DNA of 64,000 nt from an uncultured Nitrospiraceae bacterium (lineage in GTDB: Bacteria > Nitrospirota > Thermodesulfovibrionia > Thermodesulfovibrionales > Dissulfurispiraceae). Of this stretch, positions 29,735 through 46,028 are shown piece by piece. A model generated the notes under the pieces. That model did not search any database. It was not told the origin of the DNA and saw only the letters and a program-made list of their open reading frames with translations. Position numbers and translations under genes: made by a program. Position 1 is the first letter of the stretch, and each line of letters opens with the position of its first letter. The stretch spans positions 1 to 64,000 of the forward strand of contig CAIJNL010000037.1 of assembly GCA_903822005.1 (NCBI GenBank), given 5' to 3'.

Positions 29735-32700
29735 CTAAGGATATTTTTCGGGCAGGAGAGTGAACCCTATGGCATTTGTACCATGGATTATTTTATCCAG
29801 CCCAGCAGTATGCGTTTCAGGTGAAGAATATACAGATAGTCTTCTCAATTTTCTTTTAATAATCGGGATGCTGCTGGATGCCATGCTCAGACTCACTATG
29901 CCCAATTTGAGCAGTAATTCCGTGGCATTTTGATTCCCGGCTACTTCACCACACAAACAAATGGGTATATTTTTTTGTTTCCCTATGGAGACAACGTGGC
30001 TTATCAGTCTTATTATTGCGCTATCCAAGGGCTTATATAAATAATCTAGGTCGCAGTTTTCACGGTCAGCAGCAAAAACATATTGTGTCAAGTCATTGGT
30101 TCCGATACTAAAGAAATCCACCTCATCCGCGATGAGGTCGGCATTAATTGCCGCTGCTGGGACTTCTATCAGTGCGCCTATACGTATATTTTCCGCTACG
30201 CGAATGCCTTCTTCTTTTAATTCATTTTTAACTCTTAATACTAAGTTTTTAGTTTCCCTGATTTCATCTACGGTAGAAATCATCGGGAACAAAATCGACA
30301 GATTGCCCCAAAGTGATGCTTTCAATAATGCCCGAAGCTGAGTAATGAAAGGCTTCTGTTCTTTCAAGCATAATCTGATCCCCCGACGGCCGAGGGCAGG
30401 ATTTTTTTCCAAAACAACCGGAAAGTAAGGAAGGTTCTTGTCAAACCCTACATCAATAGTCCTTACAACAACCGGCTTATTTTGCATTTTCAATAAAACA
30501 TTTCTATAAATGGCTTCCTGTTCTGCTTCGCTCGGGAATTTTTCATCGCTTACACAAAGGAACTCGGTTCTAAAAAGACCTATACCCTGAGCTCCATTTT
30601 TTAAGGCAATGTCAACTTCTTTCAGATTGCCGATGGTTGCGAACAAGGAAATTTCATGACCATCTATGGTTACTGCAGGTTGATTCAGTGCCTGCTGCAG
30701 TTCTTCAAGCTCTTTTTTGTTTTGTTCAATCCTGAACGCATAATATTTGCAGGTATTGGCATCCGGATTTACAATTATATTTCCGTTATCCGCATCCACT
30801 ATAATTTGTTGATTGTCACTTACATCTTCCATAATTCCCTTGACGCCGACTACAGATGGAATGCCCAGAGCCCTTGAAAGTATGGATATATGACTTGATC
30901 TCCCCCCTTTTTCTGTCACTATGGCTGCCACACGGGCCGGATCAAAAAAGAAAACTTCCGATACCCCCAAGTCATACGCAACTATCACGCTTCCCTCAGG
31001 CAATATGCTTATTTTTCCGGCACCATTAATGTGAGAAAGCAAACGTCGGTAAATTTCGGCAAAGCAGGAAGAGCGCTTTTTAAAATAATCATTTCTCATA
31101 TTTTCAAAAATATTTATGTGTTTCTTAAGAACCGAATCGACTGCATAACTTGCTGTTCTGCATTCCATAGTAATCATAGAATGTATCTCTTTCAGGAACT
31201 TGGCATCTTCCAGTACAAGAAAATTAGCCCGAATTATTTCCAATTCTTTTTCTGATACAAATGTTTTACCTTCCCGCAGAATTTGCTGAAGCTCTTGCCT
31301 GTATTTCTTTATGCTTTCGTCCAGCAGGTCGGTTTGTGGTTTAATTTCGTTCGAGGGAATTATTTTATTGTCAATGCTGGTTTTGTCAATGATGCGTATA
31401 ATATTGCCTAGAGCCACACCCCATGATACTCCCAGTCCTGAATATGTTATAGAATGGTCTGTTATTATATTTTTCTGATTATATTCCGGAATTGCACATA
31501 TATCATCACTTTCAATTATTTCGTCCTGATAACCGCAATTGATGATCCAGTCACCGGGTACTAAATTGTTCATTCTCTCTTCATTTAAAACATCAGTTTT
31601 TATATCTATATGTTCAGGCAGGTTTTCCACTGTAACCTGGAATTTGGATTTATTTTGCGCCGAATAGGTCAAGAAACATTTGGCGGAAATAACCTGTATG
31701 TCGCTTCTGAGCTGCCCTGCATTTCCCGGACAGTCATATATCAGCAATGATTTAATAACGTCTTTGGAAATGTAGAAATTCTTATGCGTACGTAAAGCTT
31801 CATTTAAAAAGAAATGGCGAATAATTTCTGCTCTTTCTTCCATGGATCGGTCTATTAAGGCAGGCATTCTGATTAATACCGGCAGTCTGCGCCGGAATGT
31901 AATAAGGAGTGATGATTCCGGATCTTCCGTCGTGGCGGCGATAATTGTAACATATACCTTATTGCAGGCACTTGTTTCGCCTAAACGGCGGAATTCGCCA
32001 TGGTCCAGGATCTGAAATAACACTTCCTGGCCTTCGGCTGGCAAACGATGTATTTCATCCAGAAATAATAGCCCATTGTCTGCCCTGTCTATCAATCCCT
32101 CTTTCTTATTATCAGCGTTTGTAAAAGCGCCTTTTACGTGTCCGAATAATTGGGACAGCAATAATTGCGGGTTTTCACTATAATCTGCACAGTTGAAAGT
32201 TACAAGCGGAATTGTATCCCCTTTGATCAATTGAAGAAAGCGATGCATGGCACCGACCAAAAGGGTTTTGCCAACACCGGAGGGCCCTACAATGAGGGTA
32301 TGCAGTCCCCTGGGAGGATACATCATGGATGCTTTTGCCAATTGAATTTGAGGCGATAAATTACCGGCATAACCAATTATTGAACAGAAAGGATCTTCAA
32401 CTGCATCGTTTTGTTGGCGTGCAGCATCCAAAATTGCGCAGTTATTTCTATTTTGCAATGATTGATTGGATTTCTGCAAATCATTATTTTCATTTATCTT
32501 TATTTCAGAAAAAAGCGTATTGATAATAAAACGGGTTACATCATACCCTTCTTTTTGAAGAATTTCCGTTATGCTTTTGGCACTGCCTCCCCTAGCCATA
32601 AAATTGGCAACTAAAGGTCGGAGATGATTCCTCAATCTGTCTCTTGAATCCGGGATATGCAGGTTTTTCCTGAGGATAGTAACGTAAGCTCTTGAAACAT

Positions 32701-32785
32701 TTAACTTTTTTGCAATATCTAAATCTGACAAGAGTTGTTTTATATTTTCCTGTTCAATAATTTTCTTGAGTTTAGCAGGCGCCAT
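29735..32785 (-). CDS. LevR-type sigma54-activator AAA+ domain fused to PTS enzyme I
   Basis: A 1016-residue fusion. Residues 1-60: helix-turn-helix (DLDIAKKLNVSRAYVTILRK). Residues 130-395: AAA+ module like LevR, with Walker A GPSGVGKT (167-174), GAFTNA (219-224) in place of GAFTGA, Walker B LLFLDE (239-244), IAATTEDPESS and CPGNAGQL. Residues ~447-1000: full enzyme I. This comprises an N-terminal strand (GLGVSWGVALG), an HPr-binding-like helical region, the phosphohistidine loop GGRSSH with His632, and the PEP barrel with GLFRTEF, RTIDVGFDK, NPALGRRGIR, IEVPAAA, GTNDLTQY and the catalytic Cys945 in CGEVAG. All enzyme I residues I can check are kept, so PEP-driven phosphorylation is plausible. 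Usual LevR proteins carry PRD and EII domains instead. DNA here is A+T-rich. It is divergent from the hydroxyacid operon it probably controls. Confidence 0.85.
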   Translation of the reverse strand: MAPAKLKKIIEQENIKQLLSDLDIAKKLNVSRAYVTILRKNLHIPDSRDRLRNHLRPLVANFMARGGSAKSITEILQKEGYDVTRFIINTLFSEIKINENNDLQKSNQSLQNRNNCAILDAARQQNDAVEDPFCSIIGYAGNLSPQIQLAKASMMYPPRGLHTLIVGPSGVGKTLLVGAMHRFLQLIKGDTIPLVTFNCADYSENPQLLLSQLFGHVKGAFTNADNKKEGLIDRADNGLLFLDEIHRLPAEGQEVLFQILDHGEFRRLGETSACNKVYVTIIAATTEDPESSLLITFRRRLPVLIRMPALIDRSMEERAEIIRHFFLNEALRTHKNFYISKDVIKSLLIYDCPGNAGQLRSDIQVISAKCFLTYSAQNKSKFQVTVENLPEHIDIKTDVLNEERMNNLVPGDWIINCGYQDEIIESDDICAIPEYNQKNIITDHSITYSGLGVSWGVALGNIIRIIDKTSIDNKIIPSNEIKPQTDLLDESIKKYRQELQQILREGKTFVSEKELEIIRANFLVLEDAKFLKEIHSMITMECRTASYAVDSVLKKHINIFENMRNDYFKKRSSCFAEIYRRLLSHINGAGKISILPEGSVIVAYDLGVSEVFFFDPARVAAIVTEKGGRSSHISILSRALGIPSVVGVKGIMEDVSDNQQIIVDADNGNIIVNPDANTCKYYAFRIEQNKKELEELQQALNQPAVTIDGHEISLFATIGNLKEVDIALKNGAQGIGLFRTEFLCVSDEKFPSEAEQEAIYRNVLLKMQNKPVVVRTIDVGFDKNLPYFPVVLEKNPALGRRGIRLCLKEQKPFITQLRALLKASLWGNLSILFPMISTVDEIRETKNLVLRVKNELKEEGIRVAENIRIGALIEVPAAAINADLIADEVDFFSIGTNDLTQYVFAADRENCDLDYLYKPLDSAIIRLISHVVSIGKQKNIPICLCGEVAGNQNATELLLKLGIVSLSMASSSIPIIKRKLRRLSVYSSPETHTAGLDKIIHGTNAIGFTLLPEKYP

Positions 32786-33114
32786 TGTCGACCATCACAG
32801 TGTTATTTTTACAGTCGGTTAAACTGTATACTTTTGTGCGGATAGTATACCTTGTAACATTATTTTGTCAAACAATTACATTATTGCATAAACAGGCGAA
32901 AAAAGTTAATCGCATAGAAATTAATGATAACAGGGAGCTGAAAACTTGCAATAAAAAATCTGATAACATCTTGGTTGATAAGCATAAAAACAATTCGATA
33001 TTACGCATAAAGAAATGCACAAAGTGTTTCTATTTTAAAGATTCCATATGGAATGGTATTTGCAATGCTAGTGTTAAAGGACTAAGTTGCTCATTTCATT
33101 GGGAGGTAAATTAA
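32785..33114 (+). CDS. Possible small Cys-rich protein, start uncertain
   Basis: An open frame of up to 109 codons ending 2 bases before the dehydrogenase gene. The last 33 residues read KKCTKCFYFKDS..., with CxxC, then C and C-x-x-H in a pattern seen in small metal or iron-sulfur proteins. The upstream half is hydrophobic then Lys/Asn-rich and may be untranslated leader, because no ATG with a ribosome site is visible. The frame also covers the candidate sigma54 promoter at 33049-33064, so both cannot easily be right for the same transcript. Confidence 0.3.
   Translation: MSTITVLFLQSVKLYTFVRIVYLVTLFCQTITLLHKQAKKVNRIEINDNRELKTCNKKSDNILVDKHKNNSILRIKKCTKCFYFKDSIWNGICNASVKGLSCSFHWEVN
32825..32870 (-). 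promoter_or_regulatory. Promoter of the AAA+/enzyme I regulator with paired GTATAC sites
   Basis: On the minus strand TTGACA (32870-32865), 16 bases, TATACT (32848-32843). Self-complementary GTATAC occurs at 32844-32849, over the -10 box, and again at 32825-32830, 19 bases away. The two sites on one DNA face suggest an operator, possibly for autoregulation by the encoded helix-turn-helix. Confidence 0.6.
33049..33064 (+). promoter_or_regulatory. Candidate sigma54 (-24/-12) promoter
   Basis: TGGAATGGTATTTGCA has GG (33050-33051) and GC (33062-33063) separated by exactly 10 bases, with a perfect TTGCA at -12. The -24 half (TGGAAT) only partly matches TGGCAC. Initiation near 33075 would give a short leader with the GGGAGG and ATG (33117) of the dehydrogenase gene. 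Confidence 0.4.
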
Positions 33115-33116
33115 TA

Positions 33117-34118
33117 ATGGCGAGAAATTTTGTTGTCGCGAATTTAGGACCGGACAAGAGAAAGGGGGTTCCTGAAATTTGGGCAACCTTAAAGAACTAT
33201 GGGGATATTGAATATCGGGAAATCCCTCATCCAACAGCAGATATGCCCGGATTTTTAAGCGCTGTTCAAGAAATTGATGTGATCATATGCGGTCTGGAGA
33301 AGATAACGGCTGAAATGATGGGGAAAGGCGTCAACCTTAAAGCAGCAATGAAACGGGGGGTCGGCTACGATAATTTTGATCTGGAAGCTGCTACTAAATT
33401 GGGCATACATGTCGTTGTTGGCTCAGGAAATCATTATTCAGTTGCAGAAGCTGCGGTTACCCTGATGTTGTCATGTGCCAGAAATCTTATGTACTGGCAT
33501 AGAAACACTGTAAGAGATAACAATACTTTGGGAATTGAGATGTACGAAAAAACGCTGGGCTGCGTCGGATTCGGACGGATTGGCAATCATGTTGCCAAAA
33601 TTGCCGGGGGACTTGGTATGAACGTTATCGTATACGACCCCTTTGTGCCTGATAGCGTGAAGGTAAATAGCGCTGTGCGTTTTGTCGAGTTTGATGCCTT
33701 GCTTAAGGAAAGTGATGTTATTACCCTGCATTGTCCGCTTAGTGCTGATACGCGCAACCTGATTGGAATGAAGGAACTGAAGAAGATGAAGCCTACCGCA
33801 ATATTGGTAAACACAGCGCGTGGCGGCTTGATTAATGAACAGGAACTGGCTCAGGCAGTGCAGGAGGGAGTTATTGCAGGTGCCGGCGTTGACGTTCTTG
33901 TCAATGAAAACAATGTAGCGGAATCGCCGCTGATTAAGGTCGATAAAATCATTGTTACTCCTCATAAACTTATAGGCACTGCCGAAGTCCTGCAAAGAGT
34001 CATTGGCAGCTTGCGAGATTCAGTTGTCAGCATATATAAGGGCCAAATCCCGGAAAGCTCCGTTAACAAGGGGAAAATTGCCCCCGGCGTTGATCGTATT
34101 CTTAACATGAAAAAGTAG
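33117..34118 (+). CDS. D-2-hydroxyacid dehydrogenase, phosphoglycerate dehydrogenase-like
   Basis: A 333-residue NAD(P)-dependent enzyme that interconverts 2-hydroxy and 2-keto acids. The Rossmann motif is GCVGFGRIG, the substrate Arg lies in VNTARGGLI, and a catalytic His is in VTPHKLIG. The usual Glu region reads VLVNENN. The C-terminus lacks the ACT domain of SerA. GGGAGG stands 11 bases before the ATG. It is the first gene of the operon facing the AAA+/enzyme I regulator, so its acid is probably the pathway substrate or product. Confidence 0.85.
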   Translation: MARNFVVANLGPDKRKGVPEIWATLKNYGDIEYREIPHPTADMPGFLSAVQEIDVIICGLEKITAEMMGKGVNLKAAMKRGVGYDNFDLEAATKLGIHVVVGSGNHYSVAEAAVTLMLSCARNLMYWHRNTVRDNNTLGIEMYEKTLGCVGFGRIGNHVAKIAGGLGMNVIVYDPFVPDSVKVNSAVRFVEFDALLKESDVITLHCPLSADTRNLIGMKELKKMKPTAILVNTARGGLINEQELAQAVQEGVIAGAGVDVLVNENNVAESPLIKVDKIIVTPHKLIGTAEVLQRVIGSLRDSVVSIYKGQIPESSVNKGKIAPGVDRILNMKK

Positions 34119-34147: not shown

Positions 34148-34921
34148 ATGAGTCAGCAAAAATTTATGAGATTTGAAGCAAAAGGCCAGACTTTAAAAGG
34201 TATCGTTGAAGGGGAGACTGTTTCATTAATAGAAGGCTGCATGCTCGGAGAGTGGAAGAAAACGGGGGAATTGCTTTCGCTTGCCGCAGTCGAAAAATAT
34301 CTGCCGCCGATAGAAAATCCATCCAAAGTTCTTGGCATCGGGCTGAATTATCGTGATCATGCGGAAGAAGGCGGACATCCGATACCCGAAGAACCCATTA
34401 TGTTCTTTATATCCCAAACGGCGCTTACAGGACATAAATGTCCGATAATTTATCCGGCTGTCAGCAAATTAGTTGAATATGAGGTTGAACTGGCAGTCGT
34501 AATCGGCAAGACCGCAAAAAAGGTGCCGATTGAATCCGCACTGGATTACGTATTCGGCTATACCATCTCCAATGATTTCTCGGCAAGAGATATTCAGCGC
34601 AGAGACAAGCAATGGTCACGCGGGAAATCCTTTGATACCTTTAAGCCGATGGGACCATGGATTGTTACCGGGATTAAGCCGGAAGGTCATGATATCGGCG
34701 TTATTCATAATGGCGAAAAAACCCAAAAATCAAATACAAGCAATTTCATATTTGATGTGCCTAAGATCATCAGCGTGATTTCGATGACCATGGCACTATT
34801 GCCCGGAGACATTATTCTTACCGGGACCCCCGGCGGGGTCAGGGCGATAAAGCCCGGGGATAAAATTGAATCATATATCGACGGAATCGGGGTTCTTGAA
34901 AATACGGTTATAGCCGAGTAA
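34148..34921 (+). CDS. Fumarylacetoacetate hydrolase-family protein
   Basis: A 257-residue FAH-fold enzyme; relatives hydrolyse, decarboxylate or isomerise beta-diketo or ketodioic acids. The family core appears as GIGLNYRDHAEEGG, the metal site in EYEVELAVVIGK with YVFGYTISNDFSARDIQ, KSFDTFKPMGPWIV and LTGTPGGV. All look complete. The gene follows the dehydrogenase by 29 bases with GAGGAGG upstream. The neighbourhood suggests breakdown of a 2-keto acid. Confidence 0.88.
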   Translation: MSQQKFMRFEAKGQTLKGIVEGETVSLIEGCMLGEWKKTGELLSLAAVEKYLPPIENPSKVLGIGLNYRDHAEEGGHPIPEEPIMFFISQTALTGHKCPIIYPAVSKLVEYEVELAVVIGKTAKKVPIESALDYVFGYTISNDFSARDIQRRDKQWSRGKSFDTFKPMGPWIVTGIKPEGHDIGVIHNGEKTQKSNTSNFIFDVPKIISVISMTMALLPGDIILTGTPGGVRAIKPGDKIESYIDGIGVLENTVIAE

Positions 34922-35031: not shown

Positions 35032-35796
35032 ATGTACCTCGAATCATTGACCTGGGAAACAGCACAGTCTTACATCACGGAAAAGACCATAACCATAATT
35101 CCAGTCGGAAGCATCTGCCAGCATGGCCCGGGATGTCCACTTGGTACGGACTACGTGGTTCCCACCGAACTGGTGAGGCAGATCGATGATGAATATAAGA
35201 ATGAAGTGCTTGTTCTACCGGCAGTGCCATTTGGCGTTTGCGACAATCACATGGATTTTTGCGGGACAATCAGTGTTGGCGACGAAGTTTTTTACTCGTA
35301 CATGAGTGAAATAACAAAAAGCATGATGAAACATGGTGCCAGGAAATTCCTGTTTCATAATGGAAATGCCGGCAATGATCCGGTATTGAACCGTGTTGCG
35401 CTAGACATATACAATGCCGGCGGTCTTTCAATTATATTTAACTGGCAAAGTGTAGTGGGGCAGATTAAATCCGACTGGCAGGGAGGCCATGGTGGGGCGC
35501 AGGAAATCGCAATGATCATGCACTTGCGGCCTGAATGGACGGTCTCCGTTGATTTTGCCGAAGACAGACAGCACCTCAGCAATTCCATGCGCAGCGAAAG
35601 CTTTACGGATGTTAAATTCAACGACGCAATCATCCGGATCAACCGTTCGAGCATGGCCGTATCCGGCAATGGGCACATTAAAGGACCGGATGACCCGCCA
35701 AGCAGAGCAAATGACAAATGGGGCCGGAGAATGTTCGAAACTATCGGAGCATACACGAATAATCTGATCGAAGAATTTATCAGGATATCCAGGTGA
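35032..35796 (+). CDS. Creatininase-family protein with altered metal ligands
   Basis: A 254-residue member of the creatininase/MftE amidohydrolase family. The normal GSxEQHGPHLPLxTD motif is here GSICQHGPGCPLGTD: the metal-binding Glu is replaced by Cys. The NGHGGN motif is NGNAGN, with its His replaced by Asn. His36 and Asp45 equivalents are kept, and GGHGGAQEIA supplies His and Glu near the end of the domain. It may bind a different metal or be non-hydrolytic. ATG 35032 is chosen by homology and GGGAGA upstream; an in-frame extension back to 34933 runs through the stem-loop. Confidence 0.8.
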   Translation: MYLESLTWETAQSYITEKTITIIPVGSICQHGPGCPLGTDYVVPTELVRQIDDEYKNEVLVLPAVPFGVCDNHMDFCGTISVGDEVFYSYMSEITKSMMKHGARKFLFHNGNAGNDPVLNRVALDIYNAGGLSIIFNWQSVVGQIKSDWQGGHGGAQEIAMIMHLRPEWTVSVDFAEDRQHLSNSMRSESFTDVKFNDAIIRINRSSMAVSGNGHIKGPDDPPSRANDKWGRRMFETIGAYTNNLIEEFIRISR

Positions 35797-35902: not shown

Positions 35903-37171
35903 ATGATGCTTTGGATAGGCGCCATAATTATCATTGCCACAGTTGTTGCGATTGCGAAACGACAGGAGACAAGGCTGATCCTGTTCCTGGCTGGCACTCT
36001 AATGGCTATTTTAGCGGGTCATCCCATGGCAATTATAGATTCATTTGTAAACACAATGACTTCCAAGTCGTTTGTTCCGGTTATATGCATAGTGATGGGA
36101 TTTGTCTTCGTTTTAAAAATAACAAAATGTGATGCGCACCTTGTGCATGCGCTTTCGAGCTCAATCGGCAGGTTCCCAAGATTGCTAATTCCGGGGGCGA
36201 TAATTGTTACTTTTTTGGTAGGCATCCCTTTGACCAGTGCTGCAGCTCTTGGGGCCGCAGTTGGCTCTATCGTGATCCCAACATTAATAGCTAATGGCGT
36301 TCGTCCGGCAATGGCGGCCTCTGCTGTTCTTGCCGGATCCTGGGGTTGCATGTTCAGCCCGGGTTCTGCCCATCTTCCGGTGATTGCAAAATTGGCGGAT
36401 ACGGACATTGTTTCGGTTATGATTAATCATGCCTTGGCCACGGTAGTATGTCTTGCGATTGTGGTGATAGGCCTCACATTAATTGCTGCATTTCTTAAAG
36501 AGGATGGGCGTGGTAGCAGCCCGGCTGCCATCACAGCAGCAACGCCAGCCGAAAAATTCAAGGTAAATTACGTCAAAGCATTTGTCCCGATTTTACCCTT
36601 GCTTTTACTGCTGCTTGCTTCAAATCAGATCGGTTTAATACCCAAGATATTCCAGTCGGTTCCGTTATGCATGTTTATAGGCATAGCAGCCTGTTTCGCT
36701 GTTACATTGCATAAGCCAGCCGAGATATCAAAAGAATTTTTTGCTGGTATGGGTGACGCCTATGGCAGTATCATTGGTATTATTATTGCTGCCAGCGTAT
36801 TTACTGCAGGCATGGATGCTATTGGACTTACAAGTGCGTTAACGAATGCAATGAAGGAAACCCAGGCTATGGCAAATATTTCAGCTACTTTTGGACCTTT
36901 CATTATATCCGTTTTGTCCGGTTCAGCAGATGCCACTGTAATGGCTTTCAATACAACTATTACACCGCATGCTGAGCAATTCGGCCTGCATGTATCACAA
37001 TTGGGCTCACAAGCTTTCCTTGCGGGTGTATTAGGGCGCTCAATGTCACCGGTTGCTGGAGTCGCCATTATCTGCGCGGGAATGGCTGGCGTACACCCGT
37101 TCGAACTCGCACGCCGAAACTGCTTACCGATGCTTGTAGCGGCAGTAGTCGCAATGTTTATTTTATTGTAA
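35903..37171 (+). CDS. DcuC-type C4-dicarboxylate carrier
   Basis: A 422-residue membrane protein of about 12 helices resembling DcuC. Signatures include FVLKITKCDAHLVHAL, GIPLTSAAALGAAVGSIVIPTL, GSWGCMFSPGSAHLP and the C-terminal GVLGRSMSPVAGVAIICAGMA. DcuC carriers exchange or export C4-dicarboxylates in anaerobes. It closes the dehydrogenase/FAH/creatininase-like operon and probably transports its substrate or product. GGGAGG precedes the ATG. Confidence 0.85.
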   Translation: MMLWIGAIIIIATVVAIAKRQETRLILFLAGTLMAILAGHPMAIIDSFVNTMTSKSFVPVICIVMGFVFVLKITKCDAHLVHALSSSIGRFPRLLIPGAIIVTFLVGIPLTSAAALGAAVGSIVIPTLIANGVRPAMAASAVLAGSWGCMFSPGSAHLPVIAKLADTDIVSVMINHALATVVCLAIVVIGLTLIAAFLKEDGRGSSPAAITAATPAEKFKVNYVKAFVPILPLLLLLLASNQIGLIPKIFQSVPLCMFIGIAACFAVTLHKPAEISKEFFAGMGDAYGSIIGIIIAASVFTAGMDAIGLTSALTNAMKETQAMANISATFGPFIISVLSGSADATVMAFNTTITPHAEQFGLHVSQLGSQAFLAGVLGRSMSPVAGVAIICAGMAGVHPFELARRNCLPMLVAAVVAMFILL

Positions 37172-37285
37172 CATCTTCTTTTTTAGGATCTCGCAAACCG
37201 GGTTTTGGAGGTGCACCCCGCTGATTTGCAGGAAATGACGCTCATCTCAGCTTCAGGGGAGAATTATAAAAAAAGGAGGCAACAG

Positions 37286-39040
37286 ATGGAAAAGCTGAAG
37301 AAGTTTTCAATTCTCCTGGTGATCATGCTTGGAATGTTGCTGTTCGTTTCCCAGCTCGCAATCGCCAAGGAGCAGCCCCAGGAATGGGAAATCATCAACC
37401 CGATGGGCATTATCGAGGTCAAACACTTTGACCTGGCCAAGCGGTTGTCAACGCTTGAAGGAAAGACCATTGTGTTGAGGTGGAATGACAAGCATAACGG
37501 AAATAATTTTCTTGACAGGGTAGCAGAGCTTTTAAAGGAAAAAGTCCCGTCGGCTAAAGTCATCAAGCTTTATGAAATTGACAGGACGACAATAAAGATC
37601 AGCGGGTCAGCCCAGGAGTCTGCCCGTATCGCAAAGGTCATCAAGGGGCTGAATGCTGACCTTGTCATAGCCGCACAGACCGATTGAGGGTCCTGCACAT
37701 CATGGCTGGTGGTCGACCAGTCCGAGGTTGAGAAATTAGGAATCCCTACAGTTACCGTTTCATCAGATCAGTTTATCGGTCTGGCAAAAAGTACAGTTAC
37801 AAGCACCGGTCTTCCGGACATGGCATTTGTTGAAGCGCCTCATCCGTTCGGAATGATTCCTCTTAACGAAATACGGGCAAAAGCTGATCAGGTATTCCCT
37901 GAAATCCTTCGCATGGCCACTCAGTGGAAACCTGCTGTTGCTATCAGGGCCGCTTCAAAACCGACTTATCCTGCAGAACGCATTAAATTCAGGGGAACGT
38001 ATGAAGCTTTGAACAAGATGTTTTATGACAGGAAATGGTCGTTGGGAATGCCGATCATTCCGCCAACCCCGGAGGCTGTTGCCGCAATGCTGAAAGGCAC
38101 AAAGCACAAACCCGGCGAAGTCGTCTGGGTTGTCCCGCCGCGTCAGGGGCAGCTGACTGTTGAACTGGTAGCAACGCTTGGAGTGATGTCAGGTTGCAAA
38201 CCGGAACATATGCCGCTTTTGCTAGCCATAGTGAAGGCTATCAGCCATCCTCACTATGACTGGAGGGGCAACAGCACAACAACGGCCCCGACAAATCCCA
38301 TGATCATAATAAACGGCCCTATCGTCAAGGAATTGGGCATAGCTTATTCCACCGGCGTCCTGGGCGGGGAGCAGCCCGTAAATATAGCACTCGGCTATTT
38401 CATCAACCTGGTCGGCGATATTGTTGGTGGATCAGTTCCTCCTGATGTGGACAAGAGCACACAGGGCAGCAGGGGCGATCTTGTAGCTTGGGTACTGGGC
38501 GAGAATGAGGATGCAAATCCCTGGAAGAAGTCTTATGCTGTTGAACACGGATTTAAAGCTACTGACAGCGTTGTCACAGCTTTTGGCGCTTATCTTGGAA
38601 CCAATAACACTGACCATACCAGCGTCAAGGGAAAAGATCTGCTTAATACCTTTGCCATAGGCGCAGCTGGTGTGGCGAGCGGCATCTATTCATGCCTCTC
38701 AAGGTATGATCAGCCTTTTTCATGGCTGAATTCAGTGAAGTATATGTACTTCTTTGTGGGGCCTGAACATGCTGATACGATGTACCGTGATTTTCCGACC
38801 AAGCGGTCGGTGCAGGAGTACCTCGTAAAGAAAATAGCAGTTCCCCTGTGGGGATATGCGCCGGATCAGTGCAAGATCCCGAAAGAATTTGGCGCATATG
38901 ATGAAAACACCCTCATCCCGCGCTTTACCACCCCTGAGCAGATACATATTGTTGTCACGGGAGGCGCCGGCAAACAGTCACAGATCTGGCCGCCTTTCCC
39001 GACAGGGATGGCGCCGGTCTTCGTCGTAGTCGAAAAGTAA
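37286..39040 (+). CDS. Exported UGSC-family selenoprotein, in-frame TGA read as selenocysteine
   Basis: Two open frames in the same phase, 37286-37684 and 37688-39040, are split only by TGA at 37685-37687. Read through, the junction is QTD-U-GSCTSW, the signature of UGSC-family selenoproteins, giving Sec134 and Cys137 in a UxxC redox motif. The 584-residue product has a signal peptide (1-27, ending AIA) and a UGSC domain (~30-200). A second domain (~220-584) has MPIIPPTPEAV, VVPPRQGQ, GVMSGCKPEHMP and IINGPIVKELG, a family that often accompanies UGSC proteins. AAGGAGG precedes ATG 37286. A SECIS-like hairpin follows the TGA. Secretion of a Sec-containing protein is notable. Function is unknown; a reductive or thiol-dependent step on a small molecule is possible. 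Confidence 0.85.
37685..37722 (+). promoter_or_regulatory. TGA selenocysteine codon with bacterial SECIS-like hairpin
   Basis: After TGA (37685-37687) and 16 bases, GGCTGGT (37704-37710) pairs with ACCAGTC (37716-37722) around loop GGTCG. An apical GGUC loop on a short stem this far downstream of UGA resembles the E. coli fdhF SECIS. Confidence 0.75.
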
Positions 39041-39065: not shown

Positions 39066-40058
39066 ATGAGTAATTCCGGATCAGAAAGCAAAAAGTACAG
39101 CAGAAGAGATGTGCTGAAGACCGCAGGCGTTCTGGGAGCAGCAGCGCTTGCCGGCGGGTTGCTGCCGATCAAGGCTGAGGCGGCCCCTGAAAACGTTCTT
39201 TCAGGCGTAATAGAAATGCATGTGCATTCAGATCCCGACATAAGGCCGCGTTCCATCAATGATATCGAGCTTGCGCGCAAGGCCAAAGAGATGGGAATGC
39301 GTGGAGTCGTTATCAAGAACCATGACTTCCTTACGAACGACCGCGCATACCTTGTGCGGCAGATCGTTCCCGGGATCGAGATTTTCGGCGGCATTGTCCT
39401 CAACTATCCTGTCGGCGGCGTCAATCCGGTTGCTGTCGAAACAATGCTGAAATTCAGCGGCGGTTACGGCAAGATAGTATGGCTTCCGACCTATCAGTCC
39501 TCTTTTGAATGGGAGCATCTCAAGAAAAAAGAACAAGGGGTCCGGGTTGTAGACAAGGCCGGGAAAGTGCTTCCTGAGGTAAAAAAGGTCATGGAGCTTG
39601 TGGCAAAAGCAGATATAGCCCTGGGAACCGGCCATATTTCGCCTGCCGAGTCCATTACTATATCCCGCATGGCAAAAGAGATGGGACTCAAGAAGGTAAT
39701 TATCACGCATGCTATGCAGGACCCGTTTTTACTGACCCTTGACGACATGAAGCGCTGCGTGGAGGCGGGTGCCATTGTTGAACACTGCTATCTCTCGTAT
39801 CTCATGGGGCCGCTCTGTCCAGTGCCTGCATACAGGAGCTCCAAACACATCCCCATGGACGAGTTTGTAAAGGCAATTACAGCACTTGGCGCTGAAAACT
39901 GCATTGTTGCGACAGACCTCGGACAGTCATTGAATCCGGTGCCGTCAGTTGGAATGGCTGATTTCATCTCACAGCTTATGAGAAAAGGAATCACAAAGGC
40001 ACAGATTGATACCATGACGAAAGCAAACCCGGCAAAGATGCTGGGACTGGAAGTGTAA
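39066..40058 (+). CDS. Tat-exported DUF6282-type metal-dependent hydrolase
   Basis: A 330-residue protein with twin-arginine signal SRRDVLK plus hydrophobic stretch to about residue 40, so it is exported folded, likely with metal bound. The mature part begins IEMHVHSDPDIRPRS (a metal-binding HxH), followed by VVIKNHD, ALGTGHISPAES, VIITHAMQDPF and IVATDLGQS, as in amidohydrolase/PHP-like barrels; DUF6282 is the closest family I recognise. It lies 25 bases after the selenoprotein with AAAGGAG upstream, so the two exported proteins probably act on the same compound. Confidence 0.8.
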   Translation: MSNSGSESKKYSRRDVLKTAGVLGAAALAGGLLPIKAEAAPENVLSGVIEMHVHSDPDIRPRSINDIELARKAKEMGMRGVVIKNHDFLTNDRAYLVRQIVPGIEIFGGIVLNYPVGGVNPVAVETMLKFSGGYGKIVWLPTYQSSFEWEHLKKKEQGVRVVDKAGKVLPEVKKVMELVAKADIALGTGHISPAESITISRMAKEMGLKKVIITHAMQDPFLLTLDDMKRCVEAGAIVEHCYLSYLMGPLCPVPAYRSSKHIPMDEFVKAITALGAENCIVATDLGQSLNPVPSVGMADFISQLMRKGITKAQIDTMTKANPAKMLGLEV

Positions 40059-43120: not shown

Positions 43121-43311
43121 TAAAATTTGCACAGTTTACGCACAAATGCCGGATGAATTAACAATTGAGACATCTGCCCGGCTCATAAAAAAATTTTATT
43201 CATCAGGAAGGGAGGTTGATTGCAGAGTTCCAGCAGCAAAAAGAGGGTTGCAGGTTAATCAGTAATAATCCTAATCATATTGCTTATGGACATTACAAGG
43301 GGGAAAACAGC

Positions 43312-43719
43312 ATGAACACTATTATCATCGGAACAGCAATGCTGGCGCTGTGCCATCTCACAGGACTATTTCTGGGTGACGTATTGGGTTGGGCCATCGG
43401 GGCGAGGGCCAACGTCGGCGGTGTTGGTATAGCAATGCTTATGTTAGTACTCATTCGTCTGTACATGGTAAAAAAAGGCATCCTTGGGAAAAAATTTGAG
43501 GAAGGCGTCAATTACTGGGGGGCCATGTATATCCCCGTTGTAGTCGCCATGGCTGCCCAGCAGAATGTGGTTGCAGCGCTGCGAGGCGGACATGTGGCGC
43601 TTCTTGCGGCAGTTGTAACATTCACTTCCTGCTTCTGCATCATCTCATTTATGAATCGTATGGAGAGTAAAGAATCAATCGAAAAGGGCATGGCTGTCAT
43701 CAAAGATAAGGAACACTGA
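43312..43719 (+). CDS. madL: Malonate:sodium symporter subunit MadL
   Basis: A 135-residue membrane protein with four helices, the small subunit of the MadLM Na+/malonate symporter. The beginning MNTIIIGTAMLALCHLTGLFLGDVLGW and the pattern GARANVGGVGIAMLMLV match MadL. ATG 43312 follows AAGGGGGAAA. madM follows after 92 bases. MadL and MadM act only together. Confidence 0.92.
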   Translation: MNTIIIGTAMLALCHLTGLFLGDVLGWAIGARANVGGVGIAMLMLVLIRLYMVKKGILGKKFEEGVNYWGAMYIPVVVAMAAQQNVVAALRGGHVALLAAVVTFTSCFCIISFMNRMESKESIEKGMAVIKDKEH

Positions 43720-43811
43720 CCAATCTGCAGTGAAGTAAACGGCCTGTGATTAATGGCAGGCTGCAATATGCAGACTGAAACATTACGGAAATAATCGAGG
43801 GGGATAAAGAT

Positions 43812-44576
43812 ATGCTGGAAATGCTCAAGGCTGTAACGCTGCATAATGGTCTGGTCTTTGCATTCGCTTTCATCGGCGTAATAATGCTGATGTCCCAGCA
43901 GCTGTCGCGCACGCTCACTTTTGGCCGCGTTCACGGTTCTGCCATCGCGATCCTTATTGGCCTGGGACTGGCCTATTGGGGCGGTATCGAGACAGGCGGA
44001 TCAAAGGGACTGGCTGACGTAAAAATCTTTGCCGGAGTCGGCCTGATGGGCGGCGCGATGTTCCGGGATTTTGCCATTGTCTCGACCGCTTTTGAAGTCC
44101 ATGCGGAAGAAGCGGCAAGGGCGGGTGTGGTCGGTTTTGTCGCGTTATTCATCGGCACCATAGTTCCGTTTATCATCGGCGCTTCTATTGCCTATGCGTT
44201 CGGTTATACTGACGCGATCGCCATGACTACCATTGGCGCCGGCGCAGTCACCTATATCGTCGGACCTGTGACAGGCGCGGCAATAGGCGCCAGTTCAGAC
44301 CTCATGGCGTTGAGCATTGCCACCGGAGTCATCAAGGCAATCTGCGTCATGGTCTTTACGCCAGTTGCGGCAAAGTTCATGCGCCTCCAGACTCCAAGAG
44401 CTGCCATGGTGTTCGGCGGTCTCGCCGGCACTGTTAGTGGAGTTACGGCCGGGCTGGCTGCCACAGACCGCGCCCTTGTTCCGTATGGCGCCCTGACAGC
44501 AACCTTCCACACAGGTCTTGGCTGCCTGATGTGTCCTTCGGTTTTGTATCTTGCGGTCAAGGCTATATTTGGATAA
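43812..44576 (+). CDS. madM: Malonate:sodium symporter subunit MadM
   Basis: A 254-residue membrane protein of about eight helices, the larger symporter subunit. Segments VKIFAGVGLMGGAMFRDFAIVSTAFEVHAEEA, GAGAVTYIVGPVTGAAIGASSDL and FHTGLGCLMCPSVLYLAVKA are characteristic. It imports malonate with Na+, using the gradient that MadB regenerates. AGGGGGA precedes the ATG. Confidence 0.92.
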   Translation: MLEMLKAVTLHNGLVFAFAFIGVIMLMSQQLSRTLTFGRVHGSAIAILIGLGLAYWGGIETGGSKGLADVKIFAGVGLMGGAMFRDFAIVSTAFEVHAEEAARAGVVGFVALFIGTIVPFIIGASIAYAFGYTDAIAMTTIGAGAVTYIVGPVTGAAIGASSDLMALSIATGVIKAICVMVFTPVAAKFMRLQTPRAAMVFGGLAGTVSGVTAGLAATDRALVPYGALTATFHTGLGCLMCPSVLYLAVKAIFG

Positions 44577-44684
44577 TGCCGGGTGATTTTTCGCAAAAAA
44601 ATGTTATTTGCCGATAAGCAAATAAGCATACATGAAAAAATGGCAGGATTCTGCCTGAATGACTAACCGAAAGGATAAGTGAAA

Positions 44685-44861
44685 ATGGAAATAGTTCCAA
44701 TGACAGTGCCTGATACGTTAGAAGGCGCATATGTTTTAAGCGTCGTAGACTTCTTTCTCAGTATCGTCATCATCTGGGCCATCAGCCTGGTGCTCTATCT
44801 TCTGCCTTACCTGAACAAGCTCGGAGATGTGACTGACGAATCACTAAAGGGCGGACACTGA
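44685..44861 (+). CDS. Small single-helix membrane protein in the mad operon
   Basis: A 58-residue protein with one hydrophobic helix (about 18-42) and a polar C-terminal tail (NKLGDVTDESLKGGH). It lies between madM and madB, and its size and topology recall the gamma (OadG-like) subunits that anchor related Na+-pumping decarboxylases, though OadG's C-terminal metal-binding region is not evident. AAGGA lies 9 bases before ATG 44685; the GTG at 44679 is an alternative. Function is inferred from position only. Confidence 0.6.
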   Translation: MEIVPMTVPDTLEGAYVLSVVDFFLSIVIIWAISLVLYLLPYLNKLGDVTDESLKGGH

Positions 44862-44894
44862 ATAACGTCACTAATGATATAAGGAAGGTATTTT

Positions 44895-46028
44895 ATGATT
44901 GAACAATTCTTGGGCCTCTTGCTCGCGCTGGTTGATCAAACTGGGCTTATGTCCATAACGCCCGGCAATCTGCTTATGATTGTTGTCGGGGGCGTGCTCA
45001 TTTATCTCGCGCTGGCAAAGAAATACGAACCATTCTTACTCATAGGCATCGGGTTTTCGTGCATAGTTGCAAACGTCCCGGGATCAGATCTGACGGCGCC
45101 CGGCGGACTGTTCCACTATGCCTACAGCGGGCTCGAAAAGGTCATAATCCCGCCGCTTATTTTCCTCGGCGTAGGCGCAATGGTCGACTTTGGGCCGATG
45201 ATAGCGAGGCCGAGCCTGATGATCCTGGGCGCGGCTGCCCATGCAGGTATCTTTATCGCCATCATTCTGGCAAAAGCGACAGGCATGTTTACTATCGCGG
45301 AAGCTGGTGCAATCGGAATAATCGGCGGAGCAGACGGCCCGATGGCCATCTTCGTCACCATGAAACTTGCTCCTCACCTTCTGCCGCAGGTTGCCGTAGC
45401 AGCTTACTCCTATATGGCGCTGATGCCGCTGATTCAGCCCCCGGTCATGAAACTGCTTACCACCAAAGCTGAGCGCTCGATTGAGATGACCCAGATCAGA
45501 CATGTGACGCGTCTCGAAAAGATAGTGTTCCCGTTTGTTATCGCAATTATCGTCAACCTGCTTCTGCCGCCCGTCGCTCCGCTGATTACCATGCTGATGC
45601 TGGGCAACCTGTTGCGCGAAGTCCTCATGGTTGAACGGCTTGCCAAGACTGTTGCGAACGACCTTATGAATGTCATCACCATCATACTGACGGTCGCGGT
45701 CGGTTCAACTATGGCTGCCGAGACATTTCTTACCTTCAAGACTTTGCTGATCCTCGGACTCGGTTTGATCGCCTTCATAGGCGGTACTGCTTCCGGCGTG
45801 ATCGGCGCGAAAATGATGAACTGGTTCCTGAAAGATAAGATCAATCCGCTTCTCGGTTCCGCTGGCATAGCCTCGGTTCCCATTGCTGCCCGCGTGGCTC
45901 ATGTGGTCGCTCTCAAGGAAAACCCTTACAACTTCATCATAATGCATGCCATGGGGCCGAACCTGGCAGGCGTTTTTGGTACGGCGATATCCGGCGGCAT
46001 TATGCTGGCGCTCCTGGGTGTCAAATAA
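44895..46028 (+). CDS. madB: Carboxybiotin decarboxylase, Na+-pumping beta subunit MadB
   Basis: A 377-residue integral membrane protein of the OadB/GcdB/MmdB family. It decarboxylates carboxybiotin and exports Na+. Conserved segments are AGAIGIIGGADGP, with the essential Asp, YSYMALMPLIQPP and NFIIMHAMGPNLAGVFGTAISGG. In this cluster it completes malonate decarboxylation and makes it energy-conserving. AAGGAAGG stands before the ATG. The start lies 33 bases after the small membrane protein. Confidence 0.95.
   Translation: MIEQFLGLLLALVDQTGLMSITPGNLLMIVVGGVLIYLALAKKYEPFLLIGIGFSCIVANVPGSDLTAPGGLFHYAYSGLEKVIIPPLIFLGVGAMVDFGPMIARPSLMILGAAAHAGIFIAIILAKATGMFTIAEAGAIGIIGGADGPMAIFVTMKLAPHLLPQVAVAAYSYMALMPLIQPPVMKLLTTKAERSIEMTQIRHVTRLEKIVFPFVIAIIVNLLLPPVAPLITMLMLGNLLREVLMVERLAKTVANDLMNVITIILTVAVGSTMAAETFLTFKTLLILGLGLIAFIGGTASGVIGAKMMNWFLKDKINPLLGSAGIASVPIAARVAHVVALKENPYNFIIMHAMGPNLAGVFGTAISGGIMLALLGVK

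Follow-up and report, generated by a model that had tools for sequence, protein, structure and literature searches.

The UGSC proteins were described in 2008 as a selenoprotein family, together with a form in which the UGSC domain is fused to another conserved domain, UGSC/Unknown_1 (PMC2398784, Figure S1A). A 2026 review lists them with selenoproteins of largely uncharacterised function (PMC13188914). The gene analysed here lies in a stretch of 64,000 nucleotides, referred to as the window, and its product also joins a UGSC domain to a second domain. This is very likely the domain of the published fusion, but the passages of the 2008 report on UGSC/Unknown_1 make no mention of export or operon context, unlike the window case (PMC2398784). 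With the family as curated (NF041046, PF24696) the window protein shares the domain, the UGSC motif, selenocysteine (Sec) or Cys at the site and a bacterial SECIS element (bSECIS) downstream. In many bacteria a UGSC protein of ~180 aa and a protein of ~350 aa corresponding to the second domain are encoded by adjacent separate genes. The family and the fusion are already known, and the two-gene form is common. Relative to the UGSC family of the Global Ocean Sampling selenoproteome, the window protein has a signal peptide and a fused C-terminal domain, and its genome holds seven Sec paralogues.

Selenoproteins outside the cytoplasm are also known. Formate dehydrogenase-N and [NiFeSe] hydrogenase are periplasmic metalloenzymes that carry a UGA-encoded Sec and are exported by the Tat pathway. 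A sequence-only reading of the window had called an exported selenoprotein unusual, which these two enzymes show to be overstated. The window protein would be like them in export and in UGA-encoded Sec; it differs in being unrelated in sequence, in having a Sec-type signal and in showing no metal-site signature.

The gene and its in-frame TGA

The gene occupies 37286-39040 of the forward strand. From ATG 37286, with an AGGAGG-type ribosome site ~10 bases 5' of it, to TAA 39038-39040 it keeps one phase, and the sole internal stop is TGA 37685-37687. Translation across this TGA gives a complete protein of 584 residues with QTD-U-GSCTSW at the site, placing Sec134 and Cys137 (37694-37696) in a UxxC pair. 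The sequence-only reading had named two same-phase frames parted only by this TGA, with the family signature appearing on read-through; its coordinates are exact and the UGSC motif is in frame at the site. It had also expected ordinary annotation to divide the gene, and plain ORF calling does cut it into two pieces, 37205-37687 and 37709-39040. The protein consists of a signal peptide (residues 1-27), the UGSC domain (about 35-212) and the C-terminal domain (about 230-584). The UGSC domain (37388-37921, forward strand) matches Pfam PF24696 at 127.4 bits (E 8e-37, cut-off 25) in an alignment that crosses the TGA, and the protein halves on either side each match the corresponding adjacent half of the model. 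NCBIfam NF041046 gives 126.2 bits for the domain alone and 122.2 for the full-length protein, which places the latter just below the curated cut-off of 125.

Mechanical annotation, by splitting the gene, treats the TGA as a true stop, and a sequencing error or a pseudogene would likewise leave two separate proteins. Such a stop, however, would halve the conserved UGSC domain, and the homologues refute it. First, all seven UGSC genes of the window genome have exactly one TGA, at the Sec site. Second, in the 66 loci that cover the Sec site, taken from public genomes, relatives and the window genome itself, the codon is TGA in 58 and TGC in eight and nothing else, so that dozens of homologues share the TGA and nothing but Cys replaces it. 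The TGA-bearing homologues span many phyla. Such an exchange of Sec and Cys codons is what a selenoprotein would be expected to show, and it excludes sequencing error, a pseudogene and a tryptophan reading. Third, the codons of the SECIS stem are frozen (see below). A pair of separate proteins is thus scarcely credible. Homologues that always end before the site would, by the sequence-only reading's own terms, have spoken against the selenoprotein; those found instead continue past it with TGA or TGC. Neighbouring genes end on TGA as an ordinary stop, so the genetic code is not altered genome-wide. The UGSC family is rare in the phylum of the window organism (3 of 396 genomes), and the seven copies in one genome therefore represent a local expansion.

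The same reading had asked for the selenocysteine machinery. The window genome (3.23 Mb, rated 100% complete) encodes SelA, SelB and SelD, and selD (L030, C14 of the same genome) has an in-frame TGA of its own in the N-terminal part and is itself a selenoprotein gene. A divergent type-II tRNA with a UCA anticodon and the loop CUUCAAA (C48:32483-32566, L012) is the best candidate for tRNA-Sec and a plausible one; it scores 38.8 bits against an Rfam gathering score of 47, is uncalled by ARAGORN and is the single soft point in the selenocysteine case. In other genomes, eight beta/gammaproteobacterial loci have selB immediately 3' of the UGSC module and one Desulfovibrio locus has it beside the module (L044, L045, L046, L050, L051, L053, L057, L058 and L094 together, nine of the 66 loci); selA is close to the module in L071.

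The predicted apical stem-loop of the bSECIS spans 37704-37722 on the forward strand. The strand GGCTGGT (37704-37710) pairs with ACCAGTC (37716-37722) around the loop GGTCG (37711-37715), and the onset is 16 bases past the TGA, exactly as claimed beforehand. A bSECIS is expected to form a stem-loop ~16-37 nt from the UGA and to have a G early in the loop; here the loop lies 24-28 nt past the TGA and has this G. Taken singly, the hairpin is weak evidence. Shuffled sequences do as well (z = +0.58), and so do recodings of the peptide with synonymous codons: p is 0.47 when pairs are counted and 0.16 when energy is compared, and 47% of the recodings pair as well as the native hairpin. The reason is that the residues LVVDQ by themselves go halfway towards specifying the hairpin. 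Its use as stand-alone evidence was dropped after these tests.

Comparison of codons across homologues is more telling. The stem codons Leu141 CTG, Asp144 GAC and Gln145 CAG are invariant in 15/15 exported homologues and rank 1, 2 and 4 among 76 conserved degenerate columns. In these 15 genes the mean excess codon identity is 0.29 in the hairpin segment against 0.03 elsewhere (permutation p < 5e-5). The L024 gene, the second copy in L053 and the Dehalococcoidia genes have other residues at the stem, yet they keep a different hairpin (CTACG-CGTGA-CGTAG in L024, for example), and in stand-alone UGSC genes the hairpin has 8 bp and sits about five bases closer. These alternative hairpins in distant Sec genes and stand-alone UGSC genes are mostly beyond synonymous expectation; in the eight Cys genes a hairpin is not consistently present. 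Energy and codon tests were used since the hairpins of L024, L049 and L055 are shifted and are missed at a fixed pairing register.

The selenoprotein claim draws support from the paralogues and other homologues, from the replacements by Cys, from the frozen stem codons and from the machinery for selenocysteine. They argue strongly that UGA134 is decoded as selenocysteine, a step in which SelB and tRNA-Sec would act through the hairpin at 37704-37722. The gene almost certainly encodes, despite its in-frame stop, a single exported protein that contains selenium.

Export and the C-terminal domain

The signal peptide (MEKLKKFSILLVIMLGMLLFVSQLAIA, 37286-37366, forward strand) has a predicted cleavage site after AIA27, and residues 2-24 form a helix in the predicted structure. 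Signal peptides, called by a heuristic that combines a hydrophobic core with an AxA motif, occur in 18 fusions, with lipobox forms in two, and in 0/14 of the other UGSC-containing proteins checked. Sec-type signals are found in the seven copies of the window genome and in those from Desulfovibrio, Mailhella, Syntrophaceae and the same order; in the Syntrophomonadaceae and Thermacetogenium copies the signals are of the lipoprotein type. The Sec signal peptide proposed for the window protein is in this way upheld by all its paralogues and close relatives. A tree of 35 fusions places 16 of its 18 exported members in a single clade with support 100/100. The remaining two, L024 of the window genome and the second Desulfovibrio copy (L053), form a separate lineage, also at 100/100, and the tree therefore requires at least two changes of the export label. 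The genome encodes Omp85, which identifies the compartment as the periplasm. Export of the window selenoprotein to the periplasm is strongly supported by these sequence features.

The C-terminal domain (37976-39037, forward strand) is of the Unknown_1 type, has no Pfam model and is a separate gene in many genomes. Its motif reads DG-LP-PPTPE-V-ML ... MAGC-P-MP ... ENE ... GG. Fusion to a second domain, as originally proposed, is supported here and had been published in 2008 as UGSC/Unknown_1 (PMC2398784). An AlphaFold2 model built from 68 sequences predicts both domains with confidence (pLDDT 92.4, pTM 0.91) and supersedes an earlier, poor model from seven sequences. The joint model and the adjacent split genes support a predicted interaction of the UGSC and C-terminal domains. 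A fold search with the model listed 50 PDB matches, all with TM < 0.2 on the query, and gave no assignment for the C-terminal domain; a sequence search for solved structural relatives found none. Some proteins with this C-terminal domain carry an N-terminal redoxin/AhpC-type domain, the match being significant in L077 and weak in L056 and L072. This fusion hints at what the electron donor may be.

Probable remote relation to selenoprotein B

The Sec-containing region of the UGSC domain resembles that of PrdB and GrdB, the selenoprotein B subunits of the reductases for D-proline and glycine. When 21 UGSC domains were aligned with 12 PrdB-like selenoproteins of the same phylum by hhalign, the match had P = 7e-6 and a probability of 84%; in the reverse direction it had P = 5e-7 and 93%. 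U-G-S-C is superimposed on U-G-L-C, Sec on Sec, and the next helix and the E-x-x-G-I-P-T strand are matched. Thus in both families U-G-x-C appears equally placed in an alpha/beta unit that ends in E-x-x-G-I-P-T. Profile matches point the same way. Selenoprotein B models of glycine (9), D-proline (6), sarcosine (6), mixed (3) and betaine (3) type are hit among the 21 UGSC members with a best E of 2e-4, HMM E-values overall ranging from 1e-4 to 1e-2, and apart from the UGSC family itself no NCBIfam families but these Grd/Prd selenoprotein B models turn up in three or more of the 21. The window protein itself matches TIGR04483 and TIGR01917 at E 0.002-0.005, far below the curated cut-offs. The relation is best read as remote homology, not as membership, and there is moderate reason to regard the UGSC domain as a diverged relative of these selenoprotein B subunits.

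The window protein differs from PrdB/GrdB (TIGR04483, TIGR01917) in being exported and in its second domain. Neither PF07355 (GrdB) nor PF09338 (the pyruvoyl-type partner) matched in the window genome, in searches where the controls were silent too; if the protein is a reductase, its chemistry may therefore differ from that of a simple glycine reductase. From the relation to selenoprotein B, Sec134 and Cys137 most likely work together as a redox pair on a small substrate.

The main rival to this substrate-specific role is a general one, in which the exported selenoprotein would handle thiols and disulfides or scavenge peroxides in the manner of thioredoxins or peroxiredoxins, a role already conjectured in 2008. 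The UxxC motif would suit it, and a thioredoxin-like fold was suggested for UGSC in the family passages of the 2008 report (PMC2398784). The profile matches, however, point to PrdB/GrdB and not to thioredoxins. They give no support to a thioredoxin fold for the UGSC domain, and that assignment was rejected.

Neighbouring genes and proposed function

Six forward-strand genes in close succession make up a putative operon, in which the window gene comes fifth. The first three encode a 2-hydroxyacid dehydrogenase (33114-34118), a fumarylacetoacetate hydrolase family protein (34148-34921) and a creatininase family protein (about 35032-35796). A DcuC-family C4-dicarboxylate transporter (35903-37171) lies directly upstream of the selenoprotein gene, and a Tat-exported, amidohydrolase-like DUF6282 protein (39066-40058) is its downstream partner. 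A divergent gene on the reverse strand (29735-32785) encodes a regulator with a sigma-54 AAA domain and PTS enzyme-I-like PEP-utiliser domains; it distantly resembles DagR and PrdR. A scan for sigma-54 promoters gave results at chance level. Farther along the window, at 43216-46028, are genes for the MadL/MadM malonate transporter followed by the beta subunit of a Na+-pumping decarboxylase.

Five loci link DUF6282 with exported UGSC genes. In four Desulfovibrionaceae loci its homologues (43-45% identity) lie 3' of an exported UGSC gene and adjoin an exported gene for the C-terminal domain only. Three other UGSC copies of the window genome adjoin a paralogue of this domain-only type, each with a hydrophobic, signal-peptide-like N-terminal segment. 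Other neighbours occur in one to three loci each and are absent from the window: MauE/DoxX genes beside other UGSC copies, and, directly upstream of the copy in L026 (6518-7433), an exported rhodanese (YCDCGPGE loop) with an exported multihaem cytochrome c. Similar rhodanese genes adjoin UGSC copies in L097 and L098.

These MauE/DoxX, rhodanese and cytochrome neighbours, and the redoxin-type domain fused to the C-terminal domain in L077, would also fit the general thiol or peroxide role. A large conserved C-terminal domain and a catabolic operon suit a metabolic enzyme better, and seven paralogues in differing regulatory contexts suggest substrate diversity; the general role is accordingly rated unlikely. 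A further alternative is an exported substrate-binding or sensing protein, whose C-terminal domain would bind a ligand while the Sec/Cys pair senses redox state and signals to adjacent sensor kinases. Several UGSC copies do adjoin two-component systems or LysR regulators, but the window copy has no adjoining sensor kinase, and a strictly conserved Sec/Cys pair, the fusion to a redoxin domain and the link with DUF6282 suggest catalysis. A sensing role is quite improbable.

The preferred reading, which is held as probable, is a periplasmic selenoprotein that acts as a Sec/Cys reductase on a small substrate and passes the product to the adjoining catabolic genes. The chain would leave by the Sec pathway in a cell with an outer membrane, as the signal peptide and Omp85 indicate. 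Sec134 and Cys137 are most likely to work as a selenenyl-sulfide redox pair, attacking the substrate and reductively cleaving or reducing it. The C-terminal domain most likely binds the substrate or contributes half of the active site, and the neighbours suggest thiol or cytochrome carriers of the periplasm as a possible source of electrons. The Tat-exported DUF6282 hydrolase would take over the product, the DcuC transporter would import it, and the hydrolases and the dehydrogenase of the same putative operon would degrade it. A broader proposal, advanced tentatively, is a periplasmic Sec-dependent substrate-reductase system in which a relative of PrdB/GrdB, fused to a new substrate domain, works with the Tat-exported DUF6282 hydrolase; it would have multiplied to seven paralogues in one genome so as to serve several substrates beyond the cytoplasmic membrane.

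A search of open-licence papers found none that describes an exported UGSC subfamily, a link to DUF6282 or a relation to PrdB/GrdB. Three elements look new: the exported subfamily; its periplasmic neighbourhood of Tat-exported DUF6282, exported second-domain paralogues, rhodanese, cytochrome c and MauE; and the putative remote homology of UGSC to PrdB/GrdB with Sec aligned on Sec. Automated annotation can split such genes and overlook them just below the curated cut-off. The link to PrdB/GrdB and the exported subfamily with its partners (DUF6282, the exported C-terminal-domain protein, the redoxin fusion and selB) provide concrete hypotheses, open to testing, about the function of this selenoprotein family.
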